DNA of 64,000 bases from Echinarachnius parma. Taxonomy: Eukaryota > Echinodermata > Echinoidea > Clypeasteroida > Echinarachniidae. Positions 11,761-47,000 of this stretch are shown here, in pieces (the stretch's first letter is position 1; each line of letters starts with the position of its first letter). The translations under genes were made by a program, and so were the position numbers. The notes below the pieces were generated by a model. The model saw only the letters and a list, made by a program, of their open reading frames with translations. It ran no database searches and was not told where the DNA came from. The stretch is from positions 1-64,000 of the forward strand of contig JBAMJV010007218.1 in assembly GCA_037951105.1 (NCBI GenBank), written 5' to 3'.

Positions 11761-12607
11761 TGCGGTTTGTATTCCTTTTGAGCATGGTGGAGTTATTACT
11801 ATTAGGTTGTAATGTAATTGTGCAGGTTTTGGTTACTAAAGTTCACTTTGACGAAAACTGTACTCTCTTTACCAGAACTCAACTATCCCTATCTTGCGTC
11901 AGTGTAAATGCAAAACTCGGTTTATTCAGATGGTGCGCATGCGTACTCGGCTTACTGCTCATGCGTCGTGTACATCTGACAAAACCTTGAGTGCATTGAA
12001 ATTTACAAAACGCACTCTAGAATGTGTATTGTCTGTATAATAAAACGGTATCTAAGAGACAGAGGACTATTTTCATCCCTGGTCAGTGGGTTACATTCAA
12101 ACCAATAAGTGCCAATTTAGCACACAGCCAACAAGGAACAACAAAGGTGCATTGAGTTAGTTAGGCCTGATGCTTCATCCTACCTGGAAACCAGTGGCCG
12201 AGAGCACGATCATGACCCAGGACCAGCCTAGTTCCACTGATCTCTAGATACTGTATATGCTTGTGCAATCCTTTACGGTTCAATGAGTTGGGGCAGATGT
12301 GTGCTCTGCTACGTTCTGTTGATTTGTATATGCAATTCTAGCATATTGACATCGATGAGTTAGGGCCAATGCTGCTAATTACATGTGGTAAATGTCGCTG
12401 GTCCGTAATCGGGCCCCTGCCCCCAGTACTTCTGGTCTCCTGGGTTTCAAGAAGGCTAGCCTCCATACTAACTGTTTTCTTCACTTGCGCTTTGAAAGGT
12501 TGAAATATCATATGTTCCAAATATTAGCAAGATTGAAGGGGGTGCGATGAAAATTTTCACTTTTTTTGGGTGATTTGAGATGGAATGACCCCTGTCTAAA
12601 AACGTTT

Positions 12608-12981: not shown

Positions 12982-13137
12982 ATGGCTGCTGCAGCCTGCA
13001 AGGTCACCCTGTCCATCCCATGTGGACCATCAGAGTGAACATCTGTGGAAGCTCTACCTGTCCGCAATCAACCTCATGAGGGCGGGAGACGTTGAGACCA
13101 ACCCTGGCCCTGGCCCAAGAACAGAGCCTCAAAAAAG
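12982..13137 (+). CDS. NLR 5' exon encoding a 2A-like ribosome-skipping peptide
   Basis: The acceptor is TTCCTTCATAG (AG at 12980-12981) and the donor is AAG|GTAAAA at 13138. In the open frame, whose codons start at 12983, the exon encodes LWKLYLSAINLM followed by RAGDVETNPGP, with the core at 13085-13111. This matches the 2A consensus D-V/I-E-x-N-P-G-P exactly; skipping would fall between Gly (13106-13108) and Pro (13109-13111). The exon ends with two bases, AG, which join the T opening the DEATH exon to make Ser, so the frame runs through. 2A sequences at the N-terminus of purple sea urchin NLRs are reported to drive ribosome skipping and to act as signal sequences. The open frame reaches back to a TAA at 12944 with no ATG before 13076, so the start must come from an unseen exon, or from the ATG at 12982, which is one base out of frame. 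A second acceptor at 12993-12994 is possible. Confidence 0.78.
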
Positions 13138-16100
13138 GTAAAAACAGTTTGTGTTTGAACTGGCAGGGTATCTTAGGGGTGAGGGACTTTTTTTTTGTAC
13201 GGAAGGGGCACAAGGATCAAACATGAGAGTGAGCTCAAATATGGTGTGCCGGGCCATTCTCCTTTAAAGGGCAATGCAACTCAAGAAAAGAGTTTATACT
13301 ACTTTATACATTGTAATATTCCTGTTTATTATATATAACATTACTCCGACTCAGATTTCTGCTTTGGAAGAAAAATTTGAAAACGCTATGGCTTTACCAC
13401 TATTTACGCGAACACTGGAGGCCGCTATTATTAGGTATGTACGGACTTCGGTCAATGATATGCATTAATGCACTTCAATAGCACCTATTCAATCCATTGT
13501 CTGAATACTTGTAGTAGATGCGCATCTACAAGTATTCAGACAATGGTTTCAATAGGAGCTATTGAAGTGCATTAATGCATGAGGTCCGTACAAACCTAAT
13601 AATGGCGGCCTCCAGTGCTCGCGTAAATAGTGGTAAAGCCGATAGAGTTTTCACATTTTCTTCCAAAGCAGAAAACTGAGGCGGAATAATGTTACATATA
13701 ATAAACAGGAATATTACGATGTATAAAGTAGTATAAACTCTTTTCTTGTGTTGCATTGCCCTTTAATACATGTAAATATGCTGGGCTACTGACAGATGTT
13801 GCCTGTCGTCATAACATTGAAGTACATCGCGCAGCCCAGTGATGGAAATCTTGGTGTGCTACTCGATTCTTAAAGGAACTAAAGAATACAACGTACTTTG
13901 GCACTTATTCCATAATTGATGACTTGTAAAATAGGTCTGCCGAAAAAAACTCAGTAGTGATTTTATACTAATTTTCGGATGCCAAATCTCACTTAGCAGC
14001 CAGTTTACGCCCCGCCCACATTTAGGGTCCAGAATCGGCAGCGTGATTGACATGTGATTGACAATTCATTGGCTTGCGTCATCTACAGAATTTAGTTCAT
14101 TAGTCCGTTCTTTAGATGACGTCACATTTTGACGATTTAAAAGGGGCGTTCCCAGGACAATGAGATATTTACTAATTACCCCAAAATGTATTGATTTCAT
14201 GGGAAATGACTGCCAAATTCTTTTTCTTGAGGAAAAATTACGTATAGAGAGCCTAATTGTGAAAATTAGGCCATCTAGACGCTGTAGTTCCTTTAAATAA
14301 CATTGTCTTTGCATGTAAATGCATCTTGCAGAGCTGCATATTTTCATATTCTAAGGTCTATGATTCTATTGTATATAACAATACTTGAGAATAGAATTGA
14401 TGCACTCGCTGACGTTTGGCGCATACGGAACCATGACGCCATACTTGTTCCGTAAGTGGTGGTAATTAATTGCATTGTTTATGAACTACAAAAGAATTTG
14501 CAAAGTGTCAGGCATCTATTCAATATCACACAAAGTTACCAAAACATATAATTATGTGTTGTTCTTTGTCTGGTGGTCCCCTTTAACCCTAGATATAGCC
14601 TGGGCTATATGAAAATACACATTTTTTCAAGGAATTCTCATTTTGTCTAGTTTCCCCCCATTTATGGAGAAAATGCAATAACATTGGAATGTTTGAAGCT
14701 TGTAGCCAACCCCCCCCCCCCCCCCCCCCTCCCCCGGGCTATTGAGGCTTAATGTCATACTTGGAAATGTGTTTCACAATTGAAGAGCTTTCTCCCAAAA
14801 GGCGCTTTATCCACTTTTTCAACTTTCGAGGAAAACAGGGTTCTTTGCCCAACTTTTACACGTGCCTATGGGAATATGAAAATTGAACTTTCTATATTTT
14901 GATTTTGAGTGAGTAATTTGTCGTAAAATGTGGATTCCTAGATAGCTACGTAGCTTATAAATCTAGATAATCGTTAACTCAATTTGCATGGAAAGTGGAT
15001 TTAGCGCCTTTTGGCACTGAACTCTTCAATTGTTCACCTGTGTCTATCTGCCAGAAGTAAACCTCAAAGTCTGCATGATGGAATGTAAGCATCTAATCTC
15101 ACTATAGGAGGGTCCACAGTGCAATGTAGTCAAGATACAGGGAAAGAGGCAGTGAGAACTGACAAATTTATCAAGTGTATGCATGTAAGCTCATCCTAGG
15201 AGGACCAACAGTGTATGCAATCCACTTCTAGGCCTTGGTAAAGAGGCCACACGAAGTGACATATTTATGGAGCACCTTAGTAATATTATGTCAACCTGGT
15301 AATGATATGGAGAAGGATAAGACCCTCTTTTTTGAGCTTGTGATATAAAATTGTCTTTTGACCCTTTCCAATTGTAAATGGGTTACAACACCTGGCATTT
15401 TGATTTTTTACACACAGGCTTGACTGCAAATACTAGATTGTTTCTTTGATGTCCATTTTGTTCAAAGTCTTTTTTTTCCTCTTGTTTGTTTCACTATTTC
15501 ATATCCCCCAGTTTTGATGATACCCTACGTGGTATAGCTAAGGATGTCACTGACAATGACAAGATTGAAGCCTTTGGGAAAGCACTTGGATTCTGCCAGG
15601 GAGAGATTGATAACTACCTCGACACCAATATGCGGTTCCATCAAGTGACTAGTAGAGGAACACTGCAGATGCTGCGAGACTGGCATGACACTGTGGGAGA
15701 GGCTGAGGGGAGGTCTGTCATCAGGGAAGCTTTGGTGAATGCAAAGCTGAGCAGGATTGCAGATAAGCACTTTCCAATAGGTATGCAATGTAGCTCTCTC
15801 TAATTCATCTTTAACACTTATAGAATAATTTATCGTCATTGTTCAGCTGCCCAATTTGAAATGCAAATTATTATTTATTGTCAGGCCTTGTTATGAAAAT
15901 AATTGTTACACATTACTTCTGTATAATCAGAATATCACTTTCTACATTAATCCCTCCCCCACGAGAACCTGGTGGGCTATGTACAACGTCTATTTGGGTT
16001 TCAGAACCTTGAAGGGAATGGGTTAAAAGTGTTTATTCACTTCTCAGTTGTACAACAAACTGTACACATCTATCCAGTTATGTTCTGTTTTCTGCATTTT

Positions 16101-19100
16101 ATTTTGTGCAAATACACGGCCTGGTTGTGTCAGTATAAAATGTTTTCCCCTCAACTTTTGGTGGCATTAAACTAACATTTGTTGCCCTCTAAATTGAATT
16201 TCATTTGTAAAATGTGTACCATTCGAAAAAATATCACACTCGTAATTAATCAAAACATTGAATATAAATAAGGCAAGCTTGAGATTGAAGATTTCATGAC
16301 TTGTTCTGTCACTGTCAGTTTGAACATCCATTTGCCCAATTAACCTACCAAAAAATGACTCTCCTAGGTTTTTTGCTGGCTAAAAAATCATATATACTGA
16401 CCCCAGGCTTTTAAACTATATTTTAAACTATAGGAATAATGAAAATTCATGCTCATGTAGTGTATTATCTTAATATCTGGTATTTACAGATTCACCATCA
16501 GCATCTTCAATGGAAAGCACTGCTTCAGAGAGGAAGGATGTAAGAGGAGGTAAGTGATGGAAACCCATGATATGATTTTTGCTTAGTGCAGTTCTATCTA
16601 TTTGTTACATTTTGTGAAAGTTTGTTTATAATTATCTAGGTTAAAAAGAATGAGACAAAGAAATTAAGGAGTTTTAAAAAAATGATTTGAAAATTGAAAC
16701 CAAAGAGTTGATTTTCTAACATAAATTAATTAATTTATCTAGAACCTTAGTCTGAATCGACCAAACGCACTCCCATCTCGAGTGGTTCTTTCACGCTGCT
16801 TTCCTCTTTCTAATCGAAATATAAAACCAGTTTGTATTTGGCTGATTTCCTCAGTTGTGATACCAATAAAGATGTGTATGATGTAATTGGAAACAAAATT
16901 AATGAGATGATTAAATACAAACCTATGGCAATTAATGCATCAGCAAATATCACTTTGCATTTCTGTTCATTACTTGGCCATATGACAGCTGCCATTTACC
17001 ATTGTATCAATTCTTTCAGTTTTTGTATACATGTGTCAACATACACAGTCAGGAAAAAGAATCTAATTCATGTAATATTCAATCAAATTAATTATCCCAT
17101 TCAGGACTGGTATTGAAAATACCTGGGCTTGGGTCTGTGGAGAAAACATGTTATACCAAAATAAATCGGTCCTGAATGAGTTAATATATATACACAACTT
17201 TAGAGTGATACTCACAGAAATAATCATATCTTAAATCAACTTAGCAAAGGTAAACTTCAGTAATCTTTGTTAACTCACTGTTTAAAGGGAACCTTGTTGG
17301 TCCTGTATTAACTCTATGGGAATTTCCAAATCTTGCATAGTACTACAGGTTGTAGTAAGGAAAGACAAAGCAATACAGTGGCATTGTGATGATGTGGAGT
17401 TCAGTGAGTGAATGAGTGTCACCCGAAAGTTATGGATTTACTAGATCCATTTAAAATATTTAACACATTAAATCAGTATACCTTTGCCCCAATATATGCA
17501 AAGGAAAAAAAACACTTTCCCACTAGGTGTGGTACTACAGACTGAGAGAGCTTCAGTTACTAAAATATTTTACCAGCAATACTTTTCTTTTTTCTTTGTA
17601 GGTCAGACATCATCTTCTGGATCAGCATCACCCCTCTCAGAGGAGGAGTTACGAAGGTGCTGTGATGATCTGAAATGCTTCTATCGAACACAGTTGTGTA
17701 AGATAAGAGAAGACCCTCTAGATCCTGACTCCCTTCGTCAATTTGAAGACATGTACACAAACCTTAAGATGCTCAGGAAAGATGGCAAATCATGGGACAA
17801 ACTGGATTACGAGGACCTCCTCAACATCAAAGTTAATGAGGAACTACCTAAACGACTGATGGTGCTGGGAGAAGCTGGAGTTGGCAAGTCCACTCTCTGT
17901 GCTAAGATTGCATGGGACTGGGTCAAAGGAACACATCCGTTCCAGCAATTTGACATGGTCATTGTTGTTCCATTGCGAGAATCAGGGGATAGTACAGTTG
18001 GAGAAGTAGTCAAAAGATACCTTTCGAGAGGCAATCCAGTTCCTACTTCATCCAGAAAAGGTCTTCATCATCTATGATGGGCTAGATGAGTTCAAGAATA
18101 ACATCAAACAAGAAAGCACCCAGGCAGAAAGAGACATCCAACATTCACGAAGCAACACAAACACAACAGAGGCTTCTTTAGCTAGCCACACTGCTACTCC
18201 TGAGACAAATATTGTAGAGACTCTCTCTTCAGACCAACTGGAAACATGTCTTATCCTGGTGACATCCCGTCCCTGGAAGGCAATTCAGATCAGATGGGAT
18301 GCAAAGCTGAAAAGGCTGTATACCTTCATCCGTGTAGAGGGATTCACCAAAGAAAACATCTCGGTGTACATTCAGAAGTACTTCAAAAATGACGAGGTGA
18401 AAGCGAATAATCTGATCCAGTTTATGCAGGACAATGACATCATAGCAGAGAACTTGGCCCCTTTCCCTATCTACATGTCCATGCTGTGCTTGATGTGGAG
18501 TGAACTGGGGGAAGAAAAAAGCAGACAAATCCAAAAGATGCAGACGTTTTCACAACTGTTCAAGCAGATTTTTCTTTTTCTCAAGGAGCACTCAGTCCAG
18601 AAGTCCATGGATCTAGATGATCCAAATTATGAGAGATCTATTGAGAACATTGATGAGCTGTTGAAGCCAGTTGCTAAGATTGCCTTTGATGGTCTCCTAG
18701 ATAGGAACATGGTCTTCAATGATGAGGACTTTGAAGACTGTGAGGAGGCAATGATGACCGCCTGCAAGATAGGAGTCCTGACAAAAGAAAAGAAGCTCAT
18801 CCCGAATGTACAATGGCATGATACGACCCAGTCTCGTGTGCAGGCTAAGGTGTACTTCCCCCATAAACTCTTCCAAGAGTATATGGCGGGAATGCACCTT
18901 GCATCACTCTACTATTCCAACCGCAAAGAGTATTTGCGGCTGATGGAAGAGGTGGTGCTGGAAAAGAAGGAGGAGTTCAGATACCTGCTATACTTCTGCA
19001 CGGCACAGGGCAAGGAAGTTGGGATTGATATTCTGACCAGATTGAGCATGTCTTGTAAATTGGCAGACCAAGGCATCTCTGCAGAGGGGCAGCGGGTAGA

Positions 19101-22100
19101 CGAAGACTTCTTCTCACTCATAAGTGTACTCGATCCACAGAAGCAAAAAGAAAGGCAAAGGGATTTCGTGATGGATGTCGCATTTGAATGCCAGGACAGA
19201 TATGCAGCTGAAGTGGTGAAGATGAATGCATTGTCTGAAATGAAGTCATTGATAATAAATAGAGAGATGACTGCACACACAGTCGCAGGCTACTTGTTTG
19301 TGGAACCAGACTTTGTAAGTAGACTGCTTTTTTGCCTGCATGTATCCAATATCCATTTTCATAATAGTCCAGTCCAGCAAGTAAAATCACGATTTCTCAA
19401 ATTTTAGTGGCCCTAGGCCAGAGGGCCAGATGACCCAAGGATAAGGACTGTTAAATGACATTCTGTCTACAACACATTATATTTCACATGACACAAAATC
19501 ATTGGAAGAAAATTTGTAGGCTTTGAATTTTATTTGCATATCACTTAAATTAAATGTAATATTCATAAGTCTTACACATTGAAGTTTAAGTTGATAACCA
19601 ATGGAATGTTAATATTTAGAATAAAACAGTTTTTGAAGGAAAAGGGTTGAAAGATACAGTTGTCAGAATAGCACTCTTGCGTTAAAGAGATAGTTGAGTT
19701 ATGGTATAGAGGGCGCTACACAAAATAATTTGTTGTGACATAATGAAATACTGAGTGTCAAATTTGAAAGAGCATACCATTTTAATGACAGATTAAACTT
19801 TATTTGATCAAAATCGGTTCAGAAATGGCTGAAATATCCATAAACATATATACCAATTAGGCCCCACAATTGTTAGATAATTTTGAACCAGTCATTAAAT
19901 TTTGTTTTTAAATGCTTCTTCTTTTCAAATTTAAAAAAGATTATTTTTTTAAAAGTTGTTGATTATCTCTGTATCTAATCACTATTTCAACACTATTCAA
20001 CACTGTTTTATTTTAAATGGTTGAAACCATTGAGGTTTTAGAGAGCACCCTCTTGAGTTTTAACGGCTCTTTTTTTTTAATGATAACAGGCTTTTTACTT
20101 AGTAGTTTGTAATTTTGCATTCCTTTCGAGCAAGGTGGAGTTAGTTTGTAATGTATTGTGCAGGTTATGGTTACTAAGATTCAGATTGACCAAAACTGTA
20201 CTCTCTTTACCAAAACTCAACTATCCCTTTAATTGCTGAGTATACATATTGCTCATTGTGAGTAATTGATTTATTCACAGTAGAATGATAACCATATATT
20301 CTAACACATGGTTATTATTATCCGCCAAATGTTCTTATGTAATTCTTGCACTGTACTTTTATACTTGTTAATATCTTAACAACATCATTCAACCAATATA
20401 CAGGGCGTATCAAAAAAAGCTTTACACTTTTGAAAAATCTGTCAAAATTACATTTCAAAATATTTTGAAGATTTTTTCATGTTGATAGATGCCCAATGGT
20501 CTCATCTATCAAGTGCCACTAACAAAGCAAATTTTCATTCACGCTTGGGCGAACACTGACTGTTTTTGTCCAGAGTGTGAAAAATGGCTTGCGCCAAATT
20601 GAAAGAAGAGGGAAAATTAAACCAGCAGTCCGAATAAGTACTCCCATTCATATAAATTGCTCATTGCCAGATAATTCCTAGACTAGCATAACCAGTGGGT
20701 ACCAGTGGCGTACCCAGGATTTTTCAAGGGCAGGGGGGGGGGGTTCAGAACAAAATTCTGTCAGCGGGAGAGGGGGGGGGGGGGGAGTCGTAGAAAATTG
20801 TCAAAGCCGAGACGAAGTACCTGCACAATTTTCAAGACCAAGACCAGGTCCGGTTCACAATTTTCAAGGCCGATACCAAGACCCAGTGGTTAAGAATCCG
20901 GTAAGCGGGAGAGGGGGGTTGGGGGAGGGGGGTGGGGGAGGGGGTGGGGTAGTCGTAGACAATTTTCGCAGCCGAGACTGCGAATTTTCGAAATTTTCAA
21001 GACCGTGGACAGGTCCGGTCCACAATTTTCGAGACCAAGACCAAGACCCAGTGGTTGAGAATCCGGTAAGCAGGGGTGGGGGATGGGGGATGGGGAAATC
21101 CCCCATTTCCCCCATTTCACACTCTGGACAAAAACAGTCAGTGTTCGCCCAAGCGTGAACGAAAATTTGTTTTGTTAGTGGCACTTGATAGATGAGAGGA
21201 TTGGGCATCTATCGACATGAAAACATCTTCAAAATATTTTTTAATGTAATTTTGACAGATTTTTCAAAAGTGTAACGCTTTTTTTGATACGCCCTGTATT
21301 TGTAAAGTTATACAGACCTAGTCATGGACTGCACTACATGTATGTATACTTCTGTATCAAGTTTTAACACTGAAATGTATTTGTATTCATGATAAACTGC
21401 ATTTGCTTGCTTGTGAGTTTCTTTCAATATATTCCAAGCCTAGTGAAGACTTGGAATAAAGGCAGGAGACCTTTTGAGGCTTGTTTATTAAATGTATTTT
21501 ATTTCTGTGTCTTTTACCCTACAATACAGGCTCATTTGATGGTGAACGATAGAGACTGTAAATTGATGCTCTCTACTGGGTTAGCAGAAGTTATCTGCAC
21601 ATCAACCTCTCTCAAGACTGTTTTCTTGTGTAGCTGTAATATGCATGACAACTTCTACAGCATCCTTGCTAAAGAGGGACAAGGCACTATGGTATTTAGA
21701 TTTTTGTTAATTTCTTTATTTATTTTTTAAATGTATAATATTTATTTCCACAAATGGGTGGGATGGCCCTTACAGCATAAACTGATTTTCAAAGGGGTCC
21801 CGTACAATATATACAAATACAGAGATATTACAAGCATTAAAATATAAACAATACAAATAAGTTAAATATAAAAAAAACATATATATATATACATACAAAC
21901 AGATATTCATTACATAGAAACACACTAAAAAACAAGCTTTACAAATAGGTTTATTCAGATTTTTTTAAATGCTAAAAACATATAAAATATCTTTGTGAGA
22001 AAAGAAAAAAATTACATTATCAATTCATGCCTTAATTTTAATGAGAATGTTTTAATGTTATCTAATTGCCTAATTTCTAATCGTAATGCATTAAAAGCCT

Positions 22101-25100
22101 TATAACTTGAATGAATAAAACTCTGTTTAAGTAAGTCAGTTTTTGGTTTTGATAAGAATAATTGACATTGAGAATTACGTAAGCTATATGAATGATGCTT
22201 CATTTGAATCCAAGAGAATAAATATTGTGGTATACCGTAAATCACTGTGTATAAGACGCACTCGTGTATAAAACGCACTCGTGTATAAAACGCACCCCCA
22301 ACTTTCACAGCAAAAAAACAGAACAAAAAACACTTTTTTTTTGTTTTAGACACCCTGTAGTGCTATTGGAATGCTTATACCACTGCTCTAAGTCAGGACA
22401 AGGGCTTAATGTTGCATGTAGCATTCATCAATGTCATTTTCTCACATAAAAATAGCGGTTAGTACACAAATTGCACATTTATTGAGCAGTAACACTGGTG
22501 CTCATAAATATTCATATGAATATTCATGAGCACCAATACTCACTAAATATAATGCAATTTTCTAAATTTACTAACAACTATTTTTAATTATCAGCAAAAT
22601 TTATAACCTATGGTTAGAAAATTTCATATTTAATTAGTACTGCTCATGAATGTATGAATATTCATTAGCAGCAGTATTACTGCTCAATAAACTTGCAATT
22701 TTTACATCTGTAACCAATATATGTGTGAGAAAAAGGTATATCTTGCTGAATGCTACAACTGACAGTAAGCTCTTGTCATGCTCTAAACCATGTGTTATAC
22801 ACATTCAACATGACTACAGGGTGTCCTATACCTGTGTATAAGACGCACCCCCAACTTTGAAATTTTTCCGACGGAAAAATAGTGCGTCTTATACACAGAG
22901 ATTTACGGTAATGAATATGTAACTTCCATGTAAGATTTTGATCAATTATCACCCCCAAATATTTACACCGATTTACTTCATTAAGATTGCATCCGTTTAA
23001 CTTCAATATTATTCCAGTATCATAAAAAGTCCTAATTATTTTCTGAGAACCAATTACCAGTAAGAAATTCAACTCTGGCAGGAGTAAACATGGGTATATA
23101 CTAGCTGTGTCATGTGTAAATTGGTCTGAGCCTTACTTTAATTCATGCTATTGTTGAGAAAGTTCATAGACATGTAGTATGCAAGATCATTGTGTGGAGT
23201 TTACCAATGATGACCATTTACAGATATCCCATGGAAACATGATATTTGATATATAACATCCATGTATTTTCCTTCTTATCTTAGGTTGAACATCTGGAAC
23301 TGACGAAGGTGACTCTGAGCCAATCAGCTTCCAGAGATGTAGCAACATGGCTGTCCTTGTTAAACTTGACGTACCTTAAGCTTGACGAGGTACATCTAGG
23401 TGATGACTTCTTTGCCATGGTATCTGGTCGGCATGCATCAGCTGCTGCAATCAAGGTAACTTTGTGTTAGCCCATCAATGTATAGTTATAGGGAGCTTGT
23501 TTCTATTGTATGCCTATTAGGCACAACCTAAATTCTTACTGTGGCCCGTTTGCATAAAAGCATTAAAGTGGTATAATATTTTGTTAAGGCAGATTTATTT
23601 CTGCATTTATTAACAAAATCAAAATGAAATATACAAATAACATTTTCCATACATAAAAATTAGAAAACAATGAATTTGAATACTTATACAATCATGATAT
23701 AAATGAATATGACAATAATTTATGTACTAGCTGTACCCGTGGAAATCCACGGGTTTGTGTGAGAGAAAGGCGATGACGACATAACGGCACTTTAAAACTA
23801 TACTATTCCCATAGCCATCATTTAAATAGTAAGACAAAATAGACTCGGGCGACTTAATCCCGCCCCACAACCCGTCAGGGCCCTGGTCAACGATACATCC
23901 GGCCAATGTATAACAAAATCATGATGGTTTCAGTACCCATGCAAAGTTATTCAGTTATCCCTTCATATGGTCCATAATTTGTTCCACTTGTATTAAATTA
24001 GATACAGTACACTATGTTCGTGTTCTTGATAATAAGTAGCTTCGCCGCTGCCCCCCCCCCCCCCCCCCGCGACCCCAATTGCCTGCATGACGTATAACCT
24101 CGTGTCTGCTAAACGTTTCATATCCAAATGAAGTTTTCCCGCGTATACCTTTTTTCATATTCTTGTGAAACCTGATGATATATTCCCTTGAAGGGAATAA
24201 TAGCCGTCTTTACATCCATGCATACTAAATGAGCAGATACCTCCCGATCCATTCTGCACCCCCCCCCCCCCCCCATAATTTGTATTAAATTAGATACAAT
24301 ACACTATGTTCGTGCTCTTGCTAATATACTATAGTAGCTTCGACGCTGCCCCTCACCACCCCCCTCCCCGCGACTCCAATTGCCTGCATGACACATAACC
24401 TTGTGTCAGCGTATACATTTTTACATATTCTTGTGAAACCCGATGATATATATTTTATTCCTTTGATAAGGGAATAGTAGCCGTATACATGCATTGCATG
24501 ATAAATGAGCAGATACTCCCCCATCCATTCTACCACCCAAAAATAATTAAAAGCGGGTTGAGTGGGTCAATCAGTGCAAGTGCAAACCTTTGTGTGTTAC
24601 ATATTGTATAAAATAAAGGGGTTCATGTGTACTGTACGTGCTGGTGCAGAACACACAGTTTTTACTTCTGTATAATTTCACGCCATGGAAATCTCAATGG
24701 GCCGTATGCATAAAAACAAGCAATTGCTTGTGCTAGCCTTTTGCTTGAATCGGTATGCACACAAACAAGCAATTGCAAACACGCTATAAACCAAACACGC
24801 AATTGCTTAAAACCGTATGCATAAAACAAACCTTTTACTTGTCTTGATAAGCAATTTCTTGCGTTTGTTCAAGCACCTCCAGACCAGCTTGAGCTCTTGC
24901 TTACTAAGGACATTCGCGATTTAGAATCAAGTTTTCATACCGTTTCAGGATGATTTTAATAGAACTCCTGGTTCCAGAGGTTATGTTGTGATTACATATT
25001 TAATCAAATGGCTGTTATTTTAGACATTAATATACATGTAGGCAATTTTGTTCATGATTTGAAAATATTTCCGTAAGAAAAATGTTGCCAGGTCGAGCAC

Positions 25101-28100
25101 GACCAGGGAAAGCTGCTATGCAAGGGACTACACGACGTTTGCATACACTACGAATCCCCTTTGTTGTCATGCAGTGCGATGTTCGCACAACCGTTACGAT
25201 GCTTTGTTCAACACGTAAGCAATTGCTTAGGCAGTGTAAGCAAAAGGTTTCAGCACAAGCAAAAGCTTATGCATACGAAATTAAGCAATTGCTTGAACTT
25301 GATCTTTTGCTTGACAAGCTCTTGCTTGTGCTTGAAGCAATTGCTTATAAGCAATTGCTACGTTTTATGCATATGGCCCATTGTGTAGGATACAGCCATT
25401 TTATTATTATAGTTAACCTGTACTACAGGTTATGCAGAGGAGTAAGTACTACAGTTCTTTTATTATGATGGGATTGCACAAAAGCCTTTTCATGGTATTA
25501 AACCTTGATTAACAATAGCCTGGTCACATCAGCCTCTTCAGCTATTGATCACTATGAATGATCACTTTGTGGCCTTTGTATTACTGACTGTGATTCAATC
25601 AATTGTGACATACACATGTTCTGGAAAAGTAATGTGTATCATAAAAGGCAGTTCCAAAGCCCTACAAAATATTTTGGATCACGCATTTCTTACTATTAAA
25701 CTCATCAGCCACTTTCCAACTCCGCCTTATTTTGGCTGGTGATATTAACCCTAATCCAGGGCCAAACACGGATACTCACATAAAACCACTCCAAAGTAAT
25801 AAAAGATATGTGTCCGATCTTCTTGCCCTTAGTGAGTGATTCTTGTTCGAAGTGTCCGATTCCCCTACAAGCATGGAGAACCATCAATGATCTACAAATT
25901 AATTCAAAACTACCAACACGCCGAGGACGTACCTCACGTGACTATACGCAACGCTTCTTTCTACAATATTCAAATTATGCAAACTTTCGTAAAGTTGCTC
26001 GAGCTACACCATTAATCACCCCGCATTCTACACATAGACAAGCTCTAAGTGTTCAATCTGTTAATAATGCATCAAGTAAGTTGTCTTTTGAAAAAGCAAG
26101 GTTCGCATTTTGGAATGCTCGTTCTATAAAGAATTAAACCGCATCAGTAATTGATCTATTACTTGGAAATAATCTGGATATCTTGGCAATCTGTGAATCA
26201 TGGCTTCACGGTGATGAACGTGATAATCACACCATTGCTGACCTGAAACAGGCTCTCCCAGATCAGGTATCCAGACAAACCAAGGGAGGGGGAGGCTGCA
26301 TCGTGCTCCGTAAGTCATTTGTTGTTCGTTATTACTTTGCAACACTTAAATATTTTATGCTGCCACTTCATGACTTTTTTTCTTGTCTTGCGCATCTTTT
26401 GATACCAAATTTGCGCACACCGGGTCAACGATCCATGTGTTATGTAACATTTTGGGATTGCGTGTCACTGAAAATTCAAATTGTAAAAAATTCTTTCATA
26501 TATAACATTTGTTAACGTTTATACATGCACCTTTTATGTTGCAGTTTTACACCCATCTTTTCACATGTAATGTTAGTATTCCAATTTGGCATGGTGAAAA
26601 AAACTTACTGCATTCTCATTTGCATAAAAACATATAAAACGGTAAAACTAAATAAATTTTCAGGATTATCCTAATGTTTTATCAGAGATTGGGTAAGTTT
26701 ATATAATCTTAGCATGTACATATGCATATAGTACCAGGAACACATTTTTGTTTCATAAGAATCACCATATATTTAAAAAAATACAAACAAAAATACAATG
26801 TTTGCATAATTAATTAGCTTTCGTTAGCATATTCTAATTAAAAACAAAAACTATGCAATATTGTAGAGCTCATGGACATCTATCGCCATGCCAAATTTGG
26901 AGTTGATCAGAGTTTTGATTGCCGAGAAAAATGCAAATAAAATTTTTTTTTAAATACAATTTTTGCATAATTAATTAGCTCTAATTAGCATGTTCTTATT
27001 TGTAAAAAATTTTAAAGGGAAATTCCAGTAGTGGAAAATAACTTTATTGGCCAAACTAATTGATTAGTTTTGTTGAAATAGCATAAAAAGGGTCGTGTGT
27101 GGAAAAATCAGAACCTTAGTATCGTTAAGTGCAGAAATATCAGTTAAAACGTTTATGAAAGCCGCTGACATTGAGCCTAAATTCACCGTCCGTTTGGCCC
27201 GTCTGCGCTGGCCACATAGATACGCTCGTTCGAGCAATTCGCTCGTGGGAATTACCATGTGCGCATTTGCCATAGGATTAACACGCATCGCACGCAACAT
27301 ACAACCATCGGCGAGATATCATTCCGCAGCGGATAGCTTTGTAATTTACCAAATATATTAACTAGTAGGCGGTTTCTATGCCGTATTAGTAAAAACATAT
27401 TCTTTCACATGATTGGTAATAAGAACGTACATTTAATTTTTTGTGTGTGGGGCGTTTCCCACTACTGGTATTTCCCTTTAACTACGTAATATTGTAGAAC
27501 TTATGGACATCTATCAGCATGCAAAATTTGGAGTCGATCGGAGTTTCGGTTGCCGATATCTTAGGAGGGGGACCCTTTTAGCCCCCCTTTTTAGGGTTAA
27601 GATGATTGCATTAGATAAATATTTATCTTTTGAATATATTGATTTATCCCTCCAGTTTAAGTCATGAAATCTGACCTTACAATCGATAAACATAATGGAT
27701 TATTGTGAAGTATACAAAGATAAGCTAGAAATAGCTAAAAGTCAATATTTCACTTACAAGCTCCAGAATAGTGATGCAAAGACCCTCTTTAGCATTGTTA
27801 AATCATTGAGTACCCCCAACACCAATAAAGTATTGCCTCCATTTGATTGACCTAAAACTCTTGCTGGAGAATTCGCAGAATTGTTTAAGGCTACAAATCA
27901 TTGGAATCCGTGCTGATCTGGATGCTACTGATCCTCTACCTTTGTCAGTTGATCCCCCTAGAAGAGAGCCGGAATTAAAGGGTACCACCACCCAAAAATA
28001 ATATTCTTATTATAGAAAGGTACCATCTTTAGTATTCCATTCCTTCAACATTTCACAAAAATATGTTTTCAGAAAAAAATATATAATTCGAAAACGCATC

Positions 28101-34100: not shown

Positions 34101-37100
34101 AATTTTCACGGGAAGGACTAACTAAGTAAAGGTAACATTCAAATAATATAATGCACATGTAGATAGAATGGTTTACGGTGTACCGTGTCCCATCTATTGG
34201 GTGTGAACTTAGGATAGAAGCTTTTTCTCCAACATTTATATGTTGAATAGAAGTGGCTATACTCATATTTAATAGAGCTCAATTATTTGAAGGAAAAAAT
34301 GGGTCTGTGCATTTTTATTTTGTTCACATACTAACATGTGATGTGGACCTGACTTCCAATCATTGGATCCTTGGTTAGAAACTATCTGAGCCCAAGCACA
34401 TCTGTCCTACAACATGTCATTCACTCCATACTGCTGCTCTTTGCCAGGAGTATCAATGGGTACTAGCTTGGTCGTGTGTAACATCCCATTCATACTTATG
34501 TCTAGCACTGGCTCGGCTACGAAAAAGCCGGCCATTCATACTTGGCATGATCAACAGTGGATATTTGACGCGCAAGTATGAATACAAACAGTGGCTTGGA
34601 AATGTCTAAGACATGTCTGGGCATGCGCACTGTGTTCATATGACGTAACGATGACTAAGCAAATCTGAACGTGCGATACCGTAATGCGCATGCGCAACGT
34701 TGTGCTAGACGAGTGTCTAGCATCACAATTATGCCAGGCTGAGCCCAGACTGATGCTAGACATTTCCATTCATATTTGCGTCTAGCACTGGATTTATCCA
34801 GTGCCGAGCCAGTGCTAGACGTAAGTATGAATGGGATGTGTGTTAGCCTGAGCATTTCTTACTGTATTGCTTCATGCTCTTCATAAGTTCATAAACATGT
34901 AGTATGCACGATCATTTTATGCATTTGACCAATGATGACCATGCTTTCTTTATAATACATAATTATATTAATACAGACATCCTATGAAAATGTGATATTT
35001 GATATAACAACCATGTATTGTCATTCTTATCTTAGGTTAAACATCTGGAACTGAGTGCGTTGACTCTGAGCCAATCAGCTTCCAGAGATGTAGCCACATG
35101 GCTGTCCTTGTCCAACTTAACATACCTTATGCTGTTTGATGTACAACATCTAAGTGATGACTTCTTTGCCATGGTATCTGCTCATGCATCAGCAATCAAG
35201 GTAACTTTGTATTTGCCCATCAGTGCATACATGTAGTTATGAAGCTTGTTTGTATTGTAGGCACATTATACATTCTTCCAGATATGTAGCAACATGGCTG
35301 TCCTTGTCAAACTTGACACACCTTACCCTGGTCAGTGTACATCTAGATGATGACTTCTTTGCAATGGTATACGCCATTGCATCCGCTGCTGCAATCAAGG
35401 TAACTTTGAGTTAGCCCATCAATGTATAGTTATAGGGACTCAGGGAGCCAGTTTCTATTGTATGCCTATTAGCCACAACCTACATTCTTACTGTGGCCGG
35501 TTTTCATAAAAGCATTCTAATGTGTAATTAACTAATATCAACGGATCAAACATGCATCATTTTCTATCAGAGTTCCATATGCTATTGCATAATTGTAAAA
35601 TAAATTATATTGTTCTTCTCAATACAAGTGAGGAAGAGAACATTTTATTAAAGGGTACCACCACCCAAAAATAGTATCCTTATAAATGAAAGGTATCGTC
35701 TTTAGTATTCCATTCCATCAACAAGTTCACAAAAATATGTGTCCAGGAAAAAAAATGTAATTGGAAAACGCATCACCATTCTAAAGCATGCATTAAGGGG
35801 TCTGTATGTACGAGAATAAGTGTGTGTAGAGCGAACGAATCGCCTGGGATTCTATTCAATCCAAACGTACGCGTGAATAGCATTGGCGCTCTCGCAAATG
35901 TTTGGCCCGTATAGAACAAGGAAATGGTATTGGTTCCGTAAGTGGGGGAAATTAATTGCTTTGTTTATGAATTACACAACCCTTTGCAAAATGTTGGGTA
36001 TCTATTTAATATTACAAAAATTGTGTTTTACTGTATCTAAGGTAGATTTTCATGAAGATTACTAATACAAACACATTTTCCTCGTGGGAAAACCCGGTAA
36101 AATAAACAATCAACTTGTAAATTCGCTTTAGGAACCCCCGTAAAAAAATTGAGTCCGGGCGAAGAAAAATGACGTCATCTTTGTGACGTCACATAGGATA
36201 ATCGCAGTAGACGTACACGCTGAGTGCATCTACTCACGTTGATCGAATATTATTTCGATTTTTTTTTCAATATTTGCAAACATTTGTTTAAGTTTATATC
36301 ATGGAGGATCCACACACAGATGTGTTGCTGCATCCTGCTACAATGCATTTCTTAGGCATTTCGGATCGGTTAAAGTGATCAGTGTAAAGTGTCAGATATT
36401 GCACAAACTGACATTTGAGACTTCAATCCTATATCAATATCATTGTAAAATAGAATTGAAAGATTTGTGAAAGTTTGAAAGAAAACGAACACTGTTTACC
36501 TAGTGAAAAAACGAATATTGAGTTCATATTTTATCACCGAATACTGATGGTCTGTTGTAGATTTGTTGCAGTAATAATCATCCGTTTGATCTTGACGATA
36601 TCCACACCCGTGTATACAGCTACAGACGGTACGGAATTCATGGAATTTGCGCACGCTAGGCTCAAAGTTCAGTGGGTCGGGAAAATTTCCATGTGTTCAG
36701 CGACGACAATTGTACTTTTTATCAAAACCGTTAGCTAACGCTTTTGAAATAATGATTTTCAATGATAATTATCTTCATACTAAAGGGACATTTGAAAAAA
36801 CCGAACCCTATTTTATTCTTCTCTTACCATAAGCTAAACAACACGGCAGAAGAGAAACGAGGAAGCTAGACACAAGTTAGACACCCTACCTGTGTCACTT
36901 TAAGACTCAATTTCCAAGTAAATACGAGTTTGTTTTACTAGCAAGTCAAAGACTCTGCATGTAAACCATGCACATTCGAACTTTGAACTCCGTGTTGTGG
37001 TCCTCATGTGACATCATGACCCGATGGGCACGTACTACACGTGCGCGCTCCGCTATAAATAACTGAATACTTGTAGATGCGCATCTACTACAAGTATTCA

Positions 37101-41007: not shown

Positions 41008-44000
41008 ACCAATGATGACCATGCATATAACACATAAAGTTACGGACATGTTTAGTATGGAAATGTGATATTTGTTATTTAACAACCTTGTATTGTCATT
41101 ATTTATCATAGGTTGAACATCTGGAACTGCGGGGCTTGACTCTTAGCCAATCAGCAAGCAGGGATGTAGCAACATGGCTGTACTTGTCCAACTTGACACA
41201 CCTCTGGCTGGACGAGGTACATCTAGCTGATGAGTTCTTTGCCACGGTATCTGCTCATGCTTCAGCAATCAAGGTAACTTTGTGATTAAGGCATTATCTG
41301 CTCGAACATGTTGTGTCTATATATTAATTCAGCATAATTGTTAATGAATCTGCACATTGACAGCAGATTCAACAAATTTAACTCTGCCGGGAATAAACAT
41401 GGGTATATACTAGCTGTACCATGTCTAAATTAGCCTGAGCCTTACCTATTGTATTTTTTTCATTTATTAAGATTTCCACAAATTATATTCGTAACGTACA
41501 AATCAATTAACATTGTAATATGAACATCTAATGTATACAAAATGAAATTTACCTAATAATTGAACATAGTAATTGAAGTTATAGAATTCAGAGTATACAG
41601 AAAGTATTTATAAATCAATTTAGAGTATGTCTTGTTTATATTTGAAATTTGTAAAAAAAATCTTATGTGGGGGAACCTACATAAAAGCAGATGCTTGTGG
41701 GGGTAGGTCCCCAGAAAATAAATCAGCACACATACACACAAACACATGTGTACTCATTTACTCCACGCACGCAAGTACACCTGGACAAGCGTGCGTGCAC
41801 ACACCAACACACAACAGAAGGAAAAGAAAAGAGAAGAACACCGACAAGACCGTCATAAAGACAGTATTATACATGAATTATGGGGATACCAGCAGCTGCG
41901 AGAGAAAACATAACAAAAGTGGAAGTAAAGACGAGACAGAGACAAAAAAAAATGTACCTGTTCATCAACCATGCCAAGCAGTATAAATCAATGTTACTAT
42001 TATTAATTTGTGCTGTCACCAGAGTACTGTGAAAATAATTTGTATTTCAACTAACGTTTAAATGTATGAAATCCAAGAGTTTGTTGTAATTCAATATTTA
42101 AAGAATTCCAAAGTTTGGGGCCATTATAAATGAAAGTATTTTGCAATATTCGTAGTCTAGTTTTTGGTATATGATACATGTCACTTTGTCTAGTTGAGTA
42201 TTGTATTTCTTTATTTTTCTTAAATAAAGACTCTAAAACGTCAGGCAAATCACAATTATATTTATTTAATGCATCAAAGATCCTAAATTCATTAAATATA
42301 AGTCATCAATTTTAAGAATATTACTTTTTTTTTAAAAGGATCGGCGTGGGTACGTAAATTACAACCATAAATGCTTCTTAAAATTCTCTTCTGAGTTCTT
42401 AATATTTTATCAATATTTATCCTATTTGAGCTTCCCCATGCAAGTATTCCATAGCTTAAGGGGCCCAGTGGGATATTATTTGCCATTTTCGCGCACTTTC
42501 ACGGAATCATGAATATCTTTCAAACTATTGAAGCTACCCCCTACAAACCATATACTGCTGGAAAGCTGAGAATGTGAGGAATCCAACAAAGTAAACGGTT
42601 AGACAATAGCCTAATAGGACTTAAAATAAGAGCTCAAAAGGCAAATATATTGAAAAAATAAAAAATAAAAAATAATTGACATGCCATCATTCAAATCGCA
42701 TCTTCTAAAAATTGTAGGGGTATACATCTTTGTTAATGTAAACATAGAAACTACAGTGATAGACGAACAAACTAATGGTGGCTTTTTCTAATATTCATCC
42801 ATCTTCCTAGTGAAATCAAAATTTCAAAAAAAATCAGAAATGGGACACATAACATAACATATTTTTTTTTTCATATCATAGGTATCATAGGTATCATATC
42901 ATAGGTAGAACATATGGAACCATAGGCGCCGGAAGTGGGGGGGGGGGGGGCAGGGGGGCGGCCGCCCCCCCCCCCCCTCCCCCCAATCCAAAAAGTGGGG
43001 GGGCAAAACGCAATTTTGCCCCCCAAAAAGCCCCCCCCCCCCCCGTCCAAAAAAAAAAAAGAGTGGGAAAGACACAATCAAATGTATGAGCTTACGTTTA
43101 AAAACTGTTTATATTTCCATTTTCAATTTTCGCTGCGCGCTTCGCGCGCGAACAGATTATCTCAGTTTGTTGTAAACATCTGATGAGAGCATAGACATTT
43201 TATTATTTTTTTGTTTAACTCGGATTCTAAATTTCCTTCACAGGTATGGCATGCAGTGCACCAAATTGCACCATTTCAAGTATATAAATGCAAACCCTCC
43301 CCCTCTGGATCTGCCCAAGACCTCGGTCGCTTCGCTCCCTCGGGATTCATTATTGGCTCATATTGGCTCATTATTGGATCATACATGTGCCATATGGTGT
43401 ATGTTGGAACTGTGTATGACACTAAATACAATATTTATGTGTGAGTTTGGGTGCATATTTATTGGTGCGTCAATTATTTGTTTACTTCGTGAAAAATATA
43501 TCAAATCATAACACGCTTTCCCAGATACAGTTAATCTTAAGCCCGAATTTCCTATCTATAGATATGCACCAGATTGCACAATTTCAAGTCCATAAATGAT
43601 AAATCTTTCTTAACGTGGGAGGGGGATACCCCCTCCCAAACCCTTCCCCTCCCTCCCTGCCCCAGCCCTCAGGCGCTTCGCTCCCTCGGGACTCATTATT
43701 GGCTGTGTGTTGTTAGATCATACATAATGTTGCATAATTATGGCTTATGAGTTGTTGTGTGTGTGTTTTGGGGTACATATTTATTAGTGTGTCAATTTTT
43801 TTTGTCTACGTGAAAAATATATTAAAACTTCCTGGTCGATCAAATCATATCACGCTTTCCCAAATAAAATCCGAATTTCCTATCTAGGTATGCACCAGAT
43901 TGAACAATTTCAAGTTCAAAAATGCAAAAGCTCCCTACCGTGGGGGGGGGGGGGGGAAACCCCTCTCCCACACCCTCCCCCCGCTCAGTCGCTTCGCTCC

Positions 44001-47000
44001 CTCGCAATGTCTCACTCTCACATCTGGCTCAAAGTTGGCAATCCAGAGTGTGGTTGGGCATGAGCCCTTACACACACACAAATTGTGAGCCCCCTTGGGG
44101 TTTTGCCCTCCCCCCCCCCCCCCCAATCCAAAACTGCTTCCGGCGCGCCTTTCTGGAACTGTGGGGCTTGACTCTTAGCCAATCAGCAAGCAGGGATGTA
44201 GCAACATGGCTGTCATTTTCAAACTTGACACACCTTAAGCTGGATGATGATGCTGATGATGATGATGATGATGATGATCATCATCATCATCATTATCATC
44301 CTTTTCATCAGCATCAACATCATCATAACCATTATCATTCTCATCGACGTCATCATCCTCATCATCAAGAACATCATTTTCATCACCGTTGTTGTGTTGC
44401 TCAGTATACAGTTACTCATCTGCTCGGATGACGTGACGTCATTGAAGCATAACTATGAGTGTGTGCTATCTTTAACTCTGTTGTTCACGCAAGTTAGCAA
44501 TTTTGTCGTAATTTGCTAAAGATTGTATCAAAGTATACCACCACATTTCAGGTAATTTTATTGTTTAAATAGTGGATATTATTGGTCATGTTCTTATCTA
44601 TTTTTGTAGAGAGCAAATATGTAGAAAATAATGAATTAATATCATATAGTATAGTTTTACTAGATTGGCCTATGGTGCTTTTCACGATAAACGTATATTA
44701 TATATTGCATACGTCGTGACGTAATGGATTTTGAGGATTGTTCCATTACTCTTTGATGAGTCATGTTTTAAATAATTCAAATATGGGACAAGTTAAAGGT
44801 TTAAAATGTTGTATTAGTATGGTTATCTAAAATCATGATTTGAATTATCAAAGTAGTGCATTTTGTCAGTAAAGCTTTCTTTTAAGGCCTCATAGACAAT
44901 ATTCAAATCATATAATCCGCATGTAAATGACAGAATGGTGTACCGTGTCTTAACTATTGGGTGTGAAGTTAGGATAGAAGCATTTTCTCCAATATTTATA
45001 TGTTGACTAGAAGGGTCTATACTCGTAATTAATAGAGCTCAATTATTTGAAGAGAAAAGAGGGTCTGTGCGTTTTTATTTGTTCACATACTAAAATATGA
45101 TGTGGCATTATCTAATGTGCACCTGACTTCCAATCATTGGATCCCTGGTTAGAAACCACTTCTGTCCTACAAGTCATTCATCTGTACTGCTCTTTGCCAG
45201 GAGTATGCATGGGTACTAACTTCCATACATCCTATGGAAATGTGATATTGGATATAACAACCGTGTGTTGTCATTCTTATCATAGATTGAACATCTGGAC
45301 CTGAGGTCCTTGACTCTGAGCAAATCAGCATCCAGAGATGTAGCAACATGGCTGTCATTGTCCAACTTGACATACCTTGAGCTGGCCGGTGTACATCTAG
45401 ATGATGACTTCTTTGCATTGGTATCTGCTCATGCAGCGGAAATCAAGGTAACTTTGTGTTAGCCCATCAATGTATAAGTTATAGGTAGCATGTTACTAAA
45501 TCAATTAGGCACAATCTACATTCTCCCTATGGCCTGTTGGCATAAATGCATCAAAGTGGTATAATATTGCCCAGGGGCGTAGACAACGGGGGGGGGGGGG
45601 GGGGGGGTGAGGGGGATGCATCCCCCCTCCCATCAAGGTAGTGCATTTTGCCAGTAAAGCTTTCTTTTAAGGCCTCATAGACAATATTCAAATCATATAA
45701 TCCGCATGTAAATGACAGAATGGTGTACCGTGTCTTAACTATTGGGTGTGAAGTTAGGATAGAAGCATTTTCTCCAATATTTGTATGTTGACTAGAAGGG
45801 TCTATACTCGTAATAAGGGAGTTCGTAGTTAGCCCATGGAGCGACGGACGTAATCGGGTTTTCGGAAGATTGTACCAAATTTGAGGCTTTACGCGTACGT
45901 TTACGGCACAGCCTGTGACGCACGCATTAAAGTACAGGAGCTCTATGCAGAATTTCCGCGTGCGTGCGTGAATTCTCCTTGTGTTTCGTTACGTTTGAAA
46001 GACCTGACAAAAAAAGACTCGCCTTAATCCTAAAATATTTCAAATTGAATGAATATAACCATTCATTTAAATTTTTAAACTTGAAGCAGGCTAAATAAAA
46101 AAAATTTACATCCACGTTTTCGCTGCGCGCTTTTCGCGCGAACAGATTATCTCAGTTTGTTATGTAACTTGTGTATGATCTGGGGTGAGTACTTTTTCTC
46201 TACCGGGCATGTAGTTCCCGTGTGCCTACATCGGCATTGCCCTGGCTTGTTGTGTGACGTGCACCAAATTGCACCATTTCAGGTATATAAATGCAACATA
46301 TTAACCGTTATCCCCCTCCCACCCCCCCTCCCCCATATGGCTCTGCCCCTCAGTCATGGCTATATGCTATGTTGTTGGATAATAGGTAATGTGGCATATG
46401 GTTTATGTTGGACCTGTGTATGAAAAAAAAAATTGGAGTACATATTCAGTGTGTCAATTATTTGTTTTCTTCGTGAAAAATATATTGAAAAATTCTGGTT
46501 GATCAAGTCATATCATGCTTACACAAATGCAGTCAATCTTACTCCCGAATTTCCTATCTAGGTATGCACCAGATTGCTCAATTTCAAGTCCAAAAATGCA
46601 AAAGCTCCGTACCACACCCTCCCCCCAAATCATAACACCCTCTCCTAGGTACAGTCAATCTTACTCCCGAATTTCCTATCTAGGTTTGCACCAGATTGCA
46701 CAGTTTCAAGTCCAAGTGCGGTTGGGTCCAAGTGCAGAGCCCCTGCACAAACAAATCGTGAGCCCCCTTAGGTCTTTGCCCAATTTTGCCCCAATTCCCT
46801 CGGTCTCGAAACATTTTTCATGTTTTTCATGTCACTACTACTCCATATACATTTATAATGTTTAATTAACAAATATGGGTAATATCAACAAATTACAGTG
46901 CTGTTCGATCTGATTTTTGTGTGTGTGTTACATTCATCCCCATCCGTCAACTGGAAACTGTTCAGACGTTTTGTAAAAGAGGGACAGTACCTTTAATGCA

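Follow-up and report, generated by a model that had tools for sequence, protein, structure and literature searches.

Introduction

Cells are described as using 2A sequences very rarely (PMC12846837). In Strongylocentrotus purpuratus, about 35% of NLR proteins (85/241) carry a 2A sequence at or near the N-terminus (PMC4981915). One of these receptors, SpNLR2A6, recodes at ~80% by a qualitative estimate from cell-free translation, and the substitutions L14G and L14D reduced recoding in an S. purpuratus 2A (PMC4981915).

Here, we analyzed 64,000 nucleotides of contig JBAMJV010007218.1 (positions 1 to 64,000, forward strand) from the Echinarachnius parma assembly GCA_037951105.1, hereafter the window. 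An earlier note on this DNA had proposed that a 2A-like ribosome-skipping peptide is spliced in frame to a DEATH-NACHT-LRR receptor. A bindin gene on contig C3451 of the assembly (126.2 bits, above the cut-off; 0/14 control genomes) agrees with an echinoderm origin, bindin being an echinoderm protein. In exon phase and position, the link between 2A and receptor held for the gene family, with at least 53 exons of what we call class I and a strongly conserved core, and was weak or failed for the window gene itself, in which both the start and the NACHT exon are frameshifted.

Results

The window 2A exon is followed by Death and NACHT exons of compatible phase

The 2A exon of the window occupies 12982..13137 on the + strand, as delimited by its AG/GT flanks and by alignment with 20 paralogs, and is the first coding exon in its kin. 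Between 12947 and the donor site (13137/13138) the 2A frame has no stop; it encodes ...HLWKLYLSAINLMRAGDVETNPGPGPRTEPQK. The core GDVETNPGP, at 13085..13111 (+), matched the consensus D(V/I)ExNPGP exactly, as had been claimed. When up to two mismatches were allowed to the degenerate pattern DVExNPGP, a mean of 0.02 matches was expected in the 64-kb window, compared to the one exact match seen. Across the genome (an assembly of 1.2 Gb in 14,790 contigs), the scan returned 94 exact DVETNPGP matches and none with the reversed control pattern. These numbers rule out a chance origin of the window 2A. A retroelement as its carrier was also ruled out, since Death and NACHT exons come next; no PHD finger, endonuclease or reverse transcriptase was found after the window 2A exon.

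Intron 1 (13138..15511, +) was predicted from its GT...AG ends. The donor of the 2A exon leaves the bases AG, and the first base of the Death exon (15512..15780, +), T, completes the codon, so the earlier statement that the frame is kept between the two exons was borne out. The 2A, Death, linker and NACHT exons of the window are all flanked by AG and GT, and their phases, read by eye, chain from the 2A frame on. The linker exon measures 60 nt (16490..16549, +), and L027 and L017 contain a similar exon. In the Death exon, the Pfam Death match reached 14.2 bits, below the cut-off of 22.6. A profile built from 13 kin of this exon matched the Fas death domain (E 1.9e-4), and an AlphaFold2 model of the window exon had six helices (pLDDT 90.2). 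Foldseek searches with the model returned Fas-FADD death domains as top matches; the query TM was 0.66–0.78 for the first eight, and E values went down to 5.3e-3 without reaching 0.001. All three approaches thus assign a predicted death fold to this exon. The NACHT exon (17602..19314, +) gave Pfam NACHT matches of 37.8 and 34.3 bits in two frames (cut-off 26.7), and its PDB relatives include NLRP6 (E 2.4e-4) and 5irm-type chains (NOD2; E 0.0033).

Further downstream, tblastn detected a family of repeated LRR-like exons on the + strand. One with the match range 23285..23467, a probable C-terminal exon, and one at 41112..41282 had no Pfam match, whereas those at 35036..35209 (LRR_Zer-1, 14.2 bits) and 45286..45459 (LRR_R13L1, 12.3 bits) had matches below the cut-off of 27; partial copies lie at 35274-35408, following the exon at 35036..35209, and at 44153..44242. 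These repeated exons suggest that the window gene extends to ~45 kb. A search for LRRs by regular expression gave mostly noise. The Death and NACHT parts of the proposed receptor were therefore confirmed, with a broken frame in NACHT, while its LRR part is represented only by LRR-like exons with sub-threshold or no Pfam matches.

Two other features were seen near the 2A exon. Intron 1 contains a foldback element at 13264-13766 of the window, in which three inverted repeats, 111, 60 and 55 nt long and 93–95% complementary, are nested. A block at ~12104-12193 of the window, near AGCCAACAAGGAACAACAAAG, recurs upstream of seven further class I loci, at distances that differ between them, and is a candidate promoter or 5'UTR exon; the 5'UTR exon is unproven, as the GT is absent from L012 and L023.

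The window copy carries two frameshifting indels

The ATG at 12982-12984 (+) of the 2A exon opens a frame of 18 codons that runs to a stop ending at 13038. Alignment with 20 paralogs placed seven additional bases in the window just after ATGGCTG (12989..12995, +), without counterpart in 20/20 of them, although the exact placement is ambiguous owing to CTGC repeats. As a result of this insertion, the ATG is out of the 2A frame. Past its upstream stop, the 2A frame has just one ATG, at 13076..13078 (+), the M of MRAGDVETNPG, from which only 11 residues, M included, lead up to the Gly-Pro bond. Some 20–30 residues ahead of the 2A core are reported to be necessary (PMC11512398). The window copy, with 11, falls short of a same-frame tract of this length, which was found in 52/52 class I kin. 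The out-of-frame ATGs at 12982 and 13020 both lie upstream of 13076 in the exon. The observation that the earlier note had named as speaking against its reading, a 2A frame never preceded by a start codon, thus applies within the exon to the window gene and does not apply to the family.

In the NACHT exon, 26 nt that are present in 7/7 paralogs are missing at 18040/18041. This deletion disrupts the receptor frame, which ends in a stop at 18077. We compared NACHT frame lengths over 129 retyped rows of the 150 listed; the frame was at least 400 aa in 121/129, one of which crosses a long N-like stretch, and the window frame, with 201 aa, is one of the 8/129 that are shorter. L027 is an intact-looking relative with a NACHT frame of 645 aa, and the phases of those exons that were read there form a continuous chain. 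Owing to the 7-nt insertion and the 26-nt deletion together, no 2A-processed receptor and no receptor of full length would be expected from the window copy, which is most likely a pseudogene, that is, a decayed paralog.

Class I relatives keep the start codon and the 2A core

A search of the genome with a class I exon peptide, in which the best 150 of 292 candidates were scored, yielded 53 matches with E ≤2.2e-12, none of them with an internal stop. The 53 exons read comprise the window, 20 in L009-L028, 20 in L029-L048, which the exact-pattern scan had overlooked, and 12 in L049-L060. An ATG in frame with the 2A was present in 52/53, all but the window, as called by alignment for 20 loci and by eye for 32. 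D(V/I)ETNPGP was kept in 52/53, all but L046, so the comparison with other NLR genes that the earlier note had suggested did reveal conserved 2A exons. Among the 52 exons other than the window, the core varied only between V (33) and I (19) and between D (51) and Y (1, L046), and the remainder was invariant. L046 (G000:C4251:21470-21720) reads GYVETNPGP and has a Death exon ~3.8 kb downstream; it is a natural candidate for a copy with a dead 2A.

When the leader was used as the query without the core, and 56/56 candidates were scored, 51 matches were obtained, of which 50 had an intact core. All 50 belong to the class I exons counted above, the window included, and the remaining one, C10639 (L063), is degenerate with an internal stop. 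The core is therefore kept even where it was not used to find the exon.

The exon boundaries of these relatives were uniform. In the 20 long loci, AG directly precedes the ATG after a pyrimidine-rich stretch (20/20), the 2A exon is 134, 140, 143, 149 or 155 nt long and it ends in phase 2 (20/20). In L055, two bases separate AG from ATG and the frame from the ATG is still kept, a spacing that would fit a non-coding upstream exon.

The class I leader has ~40 residues, MAAA...HHSEHL.KLYL.TINLMRAGD(V/I)ETNPG^P, and LWKLYLSAINLM is only the terminal part of this MAAA-starting leader of the kin. LMR.GDVETNPGP is common to class I and to the S. purpuratus leader, and the numbering fits that of PMC4981915. 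In the S. purpuratus numbering, R11, M12 and L13 are kept in 50, 51 and 52 of 52 class I kin, respectively, and position 14, L in that numbering, is N in 50 and S in 2. Because L14 is replaced by N or S, the skipping efficiency of the class I 2A may differ from that of SpNLR2A6.

Over the first 20 loci, pS was 0.060 and pN 0.074 overall (19 sequences used, 17 distinct; L011 was excluded for a 9-nt deletion). The pN of 0 in the core is biased, as those loci were chosen by motif. Most paralogs are close relatives and hence no independent witnesses.

2A exons lie upstream of an apparent clade of Death exons

For linkage, we used 198 2A places, 150 from the class I peptide search and 48 more from the pattern scan, and 150 scored Death candidates out of 521 found. 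A 2A place was located upstream on the same strand within 10 kb for 67/97 Death exons with at least 55% identity to that of the window, and downstream or on the opposite strand for 0/97; within 10 kb, none was found for 30/97. For the more distant Death exons the result was 0/53 in all counts. Since 67/97 of the closer exons were linked compared to 0/53 of the more distant ones, the 2A looks clade-specific within the Death-exon family. In the other direction, a NACHT or window-type Death exon followed within 10 kb on the same strand for 48/53 class I exons, and a NACHT exon lay on the opposite strand within that distance for 0/53.

Among the 20 long loci, the Death exon was of the window type in 10 and of a second type in 8, and neither type was found within ~6.5 kb in L024 and L026; L024 has a Death exon ~8 kb downstream. 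A typed composite of the second type scored 30.4 bits, over the Pfam cut-off, and in L022 this type is split over two frames. The window-type Death exon begins with one completing base in 10/10 loci, and the second type, by eye, also begins with one codon-completing base. One 2A exon thus fits either Death type.

On the window contig, a further class I 2A exon was seen at 77085, with window-type Death exons at 79117, 83633, 90811 and 95857. All of these lie on the same strand at 77085-96120 (L028 in part), so the contig holds an NLR cluster.

Other 2A-bearing exons in the genome

Among 97 further rows of the class I peptide search, we read 28 weaker matches (L061-L088). D(V/I)ExNPGP was kept in 27/28, with x being T, A, I or V; L063 reads SVETNPGQ. 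L061 and L062 were class I-like, and most others read KLFIS..(H/N)L upstream of the core. No start codon was seen at the exon start in most of L063-L088, and exons of the KLFIS..(H/N)L type are probably internal coding exons. The class II loci L001 and L003-L005 belong to this kind, and L006 is similar but out of frame at the core. Death-domain ORFs start 443–1,170 nt downstream in L001, L004, L005 and L006; in L003, none was seen within 1.5 kb downstream. A basic ORF with DWRxRIGRF, similar in L001 and L005, lies ~1.3 kb upstream of the 2A and is possibly a first coding exon or a repeat. It was seen upstream of these two loci only, and L003, L004 and L006, with flanks of just 1.5 kb, count neither for nor against it; we did not adopt it as a general upstream coding exon.

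Two loci were of a different nature. In L008 (G000:C572), DVETNPGP is followed by a PHD finger (26.5 bits), an arrangement of the 2A-bearing non-LTR retroelement type. Retrotransposons of this kind were reportedly described by Odon et al. in 2013. At 25738-26515 (+), the window itself contains a second 2A-like motif, GDINPNPGP, with the core E changed to N, and downstream of it, in another frame, an ORF with an endonuclease-like match (PF03372, 15.5 bits, below the cut-off of 24.5). This segment is the remnant of a non-LTR retroelement and probably lies in an intron of the window gene.

Discussion

We consider it quite probable that the 2A exon belongs to a large Death-NACHT NLR family, in the intact members of which StopGo would act in part, and that the window copy has decayed. 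In class I genes, an intron in the 5'UTR would precede the ATG, the phase-2 donor of the 2A exon would be spliced to either type of Death exon, and LRR-like exons would probably encode the C-terminal part of the receptors. As in S. purpuratus, the G^P bond would be skipped in part of the rounds. By this analogy, the intact kin probably release a free leader of ~40 residues and make a receptor starting with Pro, along with some fused product. In the window copy, the start would have been lost by the 7-nt insertion and NACHT truncated by the 26-nt deletion. Points against this explanation are the N or S at position 14, the D to Y change in L046, the degenerate L063, the out-of-frame class II L006, the 30/97 closer and 53/53 more distant Death exons for which no 2A place was found within 10 kb, and the close kinship of most paralogs.

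The two indels could be assembly errors, and the window gene, with frameshifts that are such errors or belong to one bad allele, might then be intact and work like its kin. The 121/129 NACHT frames of at least 400 aa favor this reading, but a gain of 7 nt in one exon and a loss of 26 nt in another are unlike single-base homopolymer slips, and we regard it as improbable. The window gene might instead make a short protein of Death and Walker-A from the ATG at 13076, ending at 18077, with a 2A too short to skip. That ATG is in frame, and the phases lead from it through Death into NACHT up to the stop; however, the out-of-frame ATGs at 12982 and 13020 come before it in the exon, and we assign this product only a slim chance. 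Decay of the window copy is the reading we keep for the locus.

What the 2A would do in the intact kin is a separate matter. The earlier note had suggested that the leader, being partly hydrophobic, may act as a signal sequence. Across five class I leaders, the best 8-residue Kyte-Doolittle mean ranged over 1.20–1.54; the window frame gave 1.51 and the S. purpuratus leader 3.25, and this suggestion is accordingly weak for class I. Two internal-exon classes gave 2.0 and 2.27. Dual targeting, in which the skipped product is cytoplasmic and the unskipped one enters the secretory pathway, was seen for SpNLR2A6 in reporter assays (PMC4981915). Given their greater length and lower hydrophobicity compared to the S. 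purpuratus leader, the class I leaders offer it little support, and for the window gene, where the ATG is also out of the 2A frame, we judge a dual-targeting leader to be very improbable. Stress gating, an idea put forward in the Discussion of PMC4981915, appears to fit the data at least as well as dual targeting. The leaders differ from one another and are hydrophilic, whereas D(V/I)ExNPGP hardly changes; scores of NLR exons may therefore retain the 2A because it skips, with no part in protein targeting, a proposal that we offer tentatively and hold to be rather unlikely. The core could also be inert and kept by recent duplication rather than by selection for skipping. The class I copies are indeed closely related, by the pS and pN given above for 17 distinct sequences, but leaders and tails vary while the core is constant, and changes across classes fall at V/I and x of D(V/I)ExNPGP, positions that are free in the consensus (PMC4981915); an inert core is in our view unlikely.

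If the 2A is kept for skipping, StopGo would give immune receptors an intrinsic gate for dose or stress, acting through ribosome drop-off and the Pro-starting receptor, and this gate would travel on a phase-2 exon that pairs with different Death domains. The genome has many 2A-tagged NLRs with leaders that do not resemble the purple-urchin signal peptide, which makes the role of a 2A in an immune receptor testable; ready comparators are the class I exons, the classes of internal exons and naturally occurring core mutants such as L046. The interest lies in the family, rather than in the window gene, which is apparently an ordinary decayed paralog.

As in viral 2A/StopGo sequences (PMC12846837), the core here fits (D/G/C/N)(V/I)ExNPGP and is preceded by (A/S)G and a segment containing L, but this putative skipping element is cellular and N-terminal in an immune receptor. 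With the 2A-bearing non-LTR retrotransposons, the window gene shares a 2A core near the start of an ORF, and in L008 a PHD finger comes after the core; the window 2A is followed by Death and NACHT and not by PHD, endonuclease or reverse transcriptase. In the open-licence PMC literature, no title or abstract opening among the matches listed was on 2A-NLRs outside S. purpuratus. The likeness to SpNLR2A is that a 2A fronts Death-NACHT receptors in both (Roulston et al. 2016, PMC4981915). The differences are that the leader here has ~40 residues compared to 26 and is far less hydrophobic, one S. purpuratus leader having been compared, that position 14 is N or S, and that some classes here are without a start codon in the exon. 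2A-fronted NLRs are a kind already described in S. purpuratus, and the window holds a real 2A exon from a large family of this kind.
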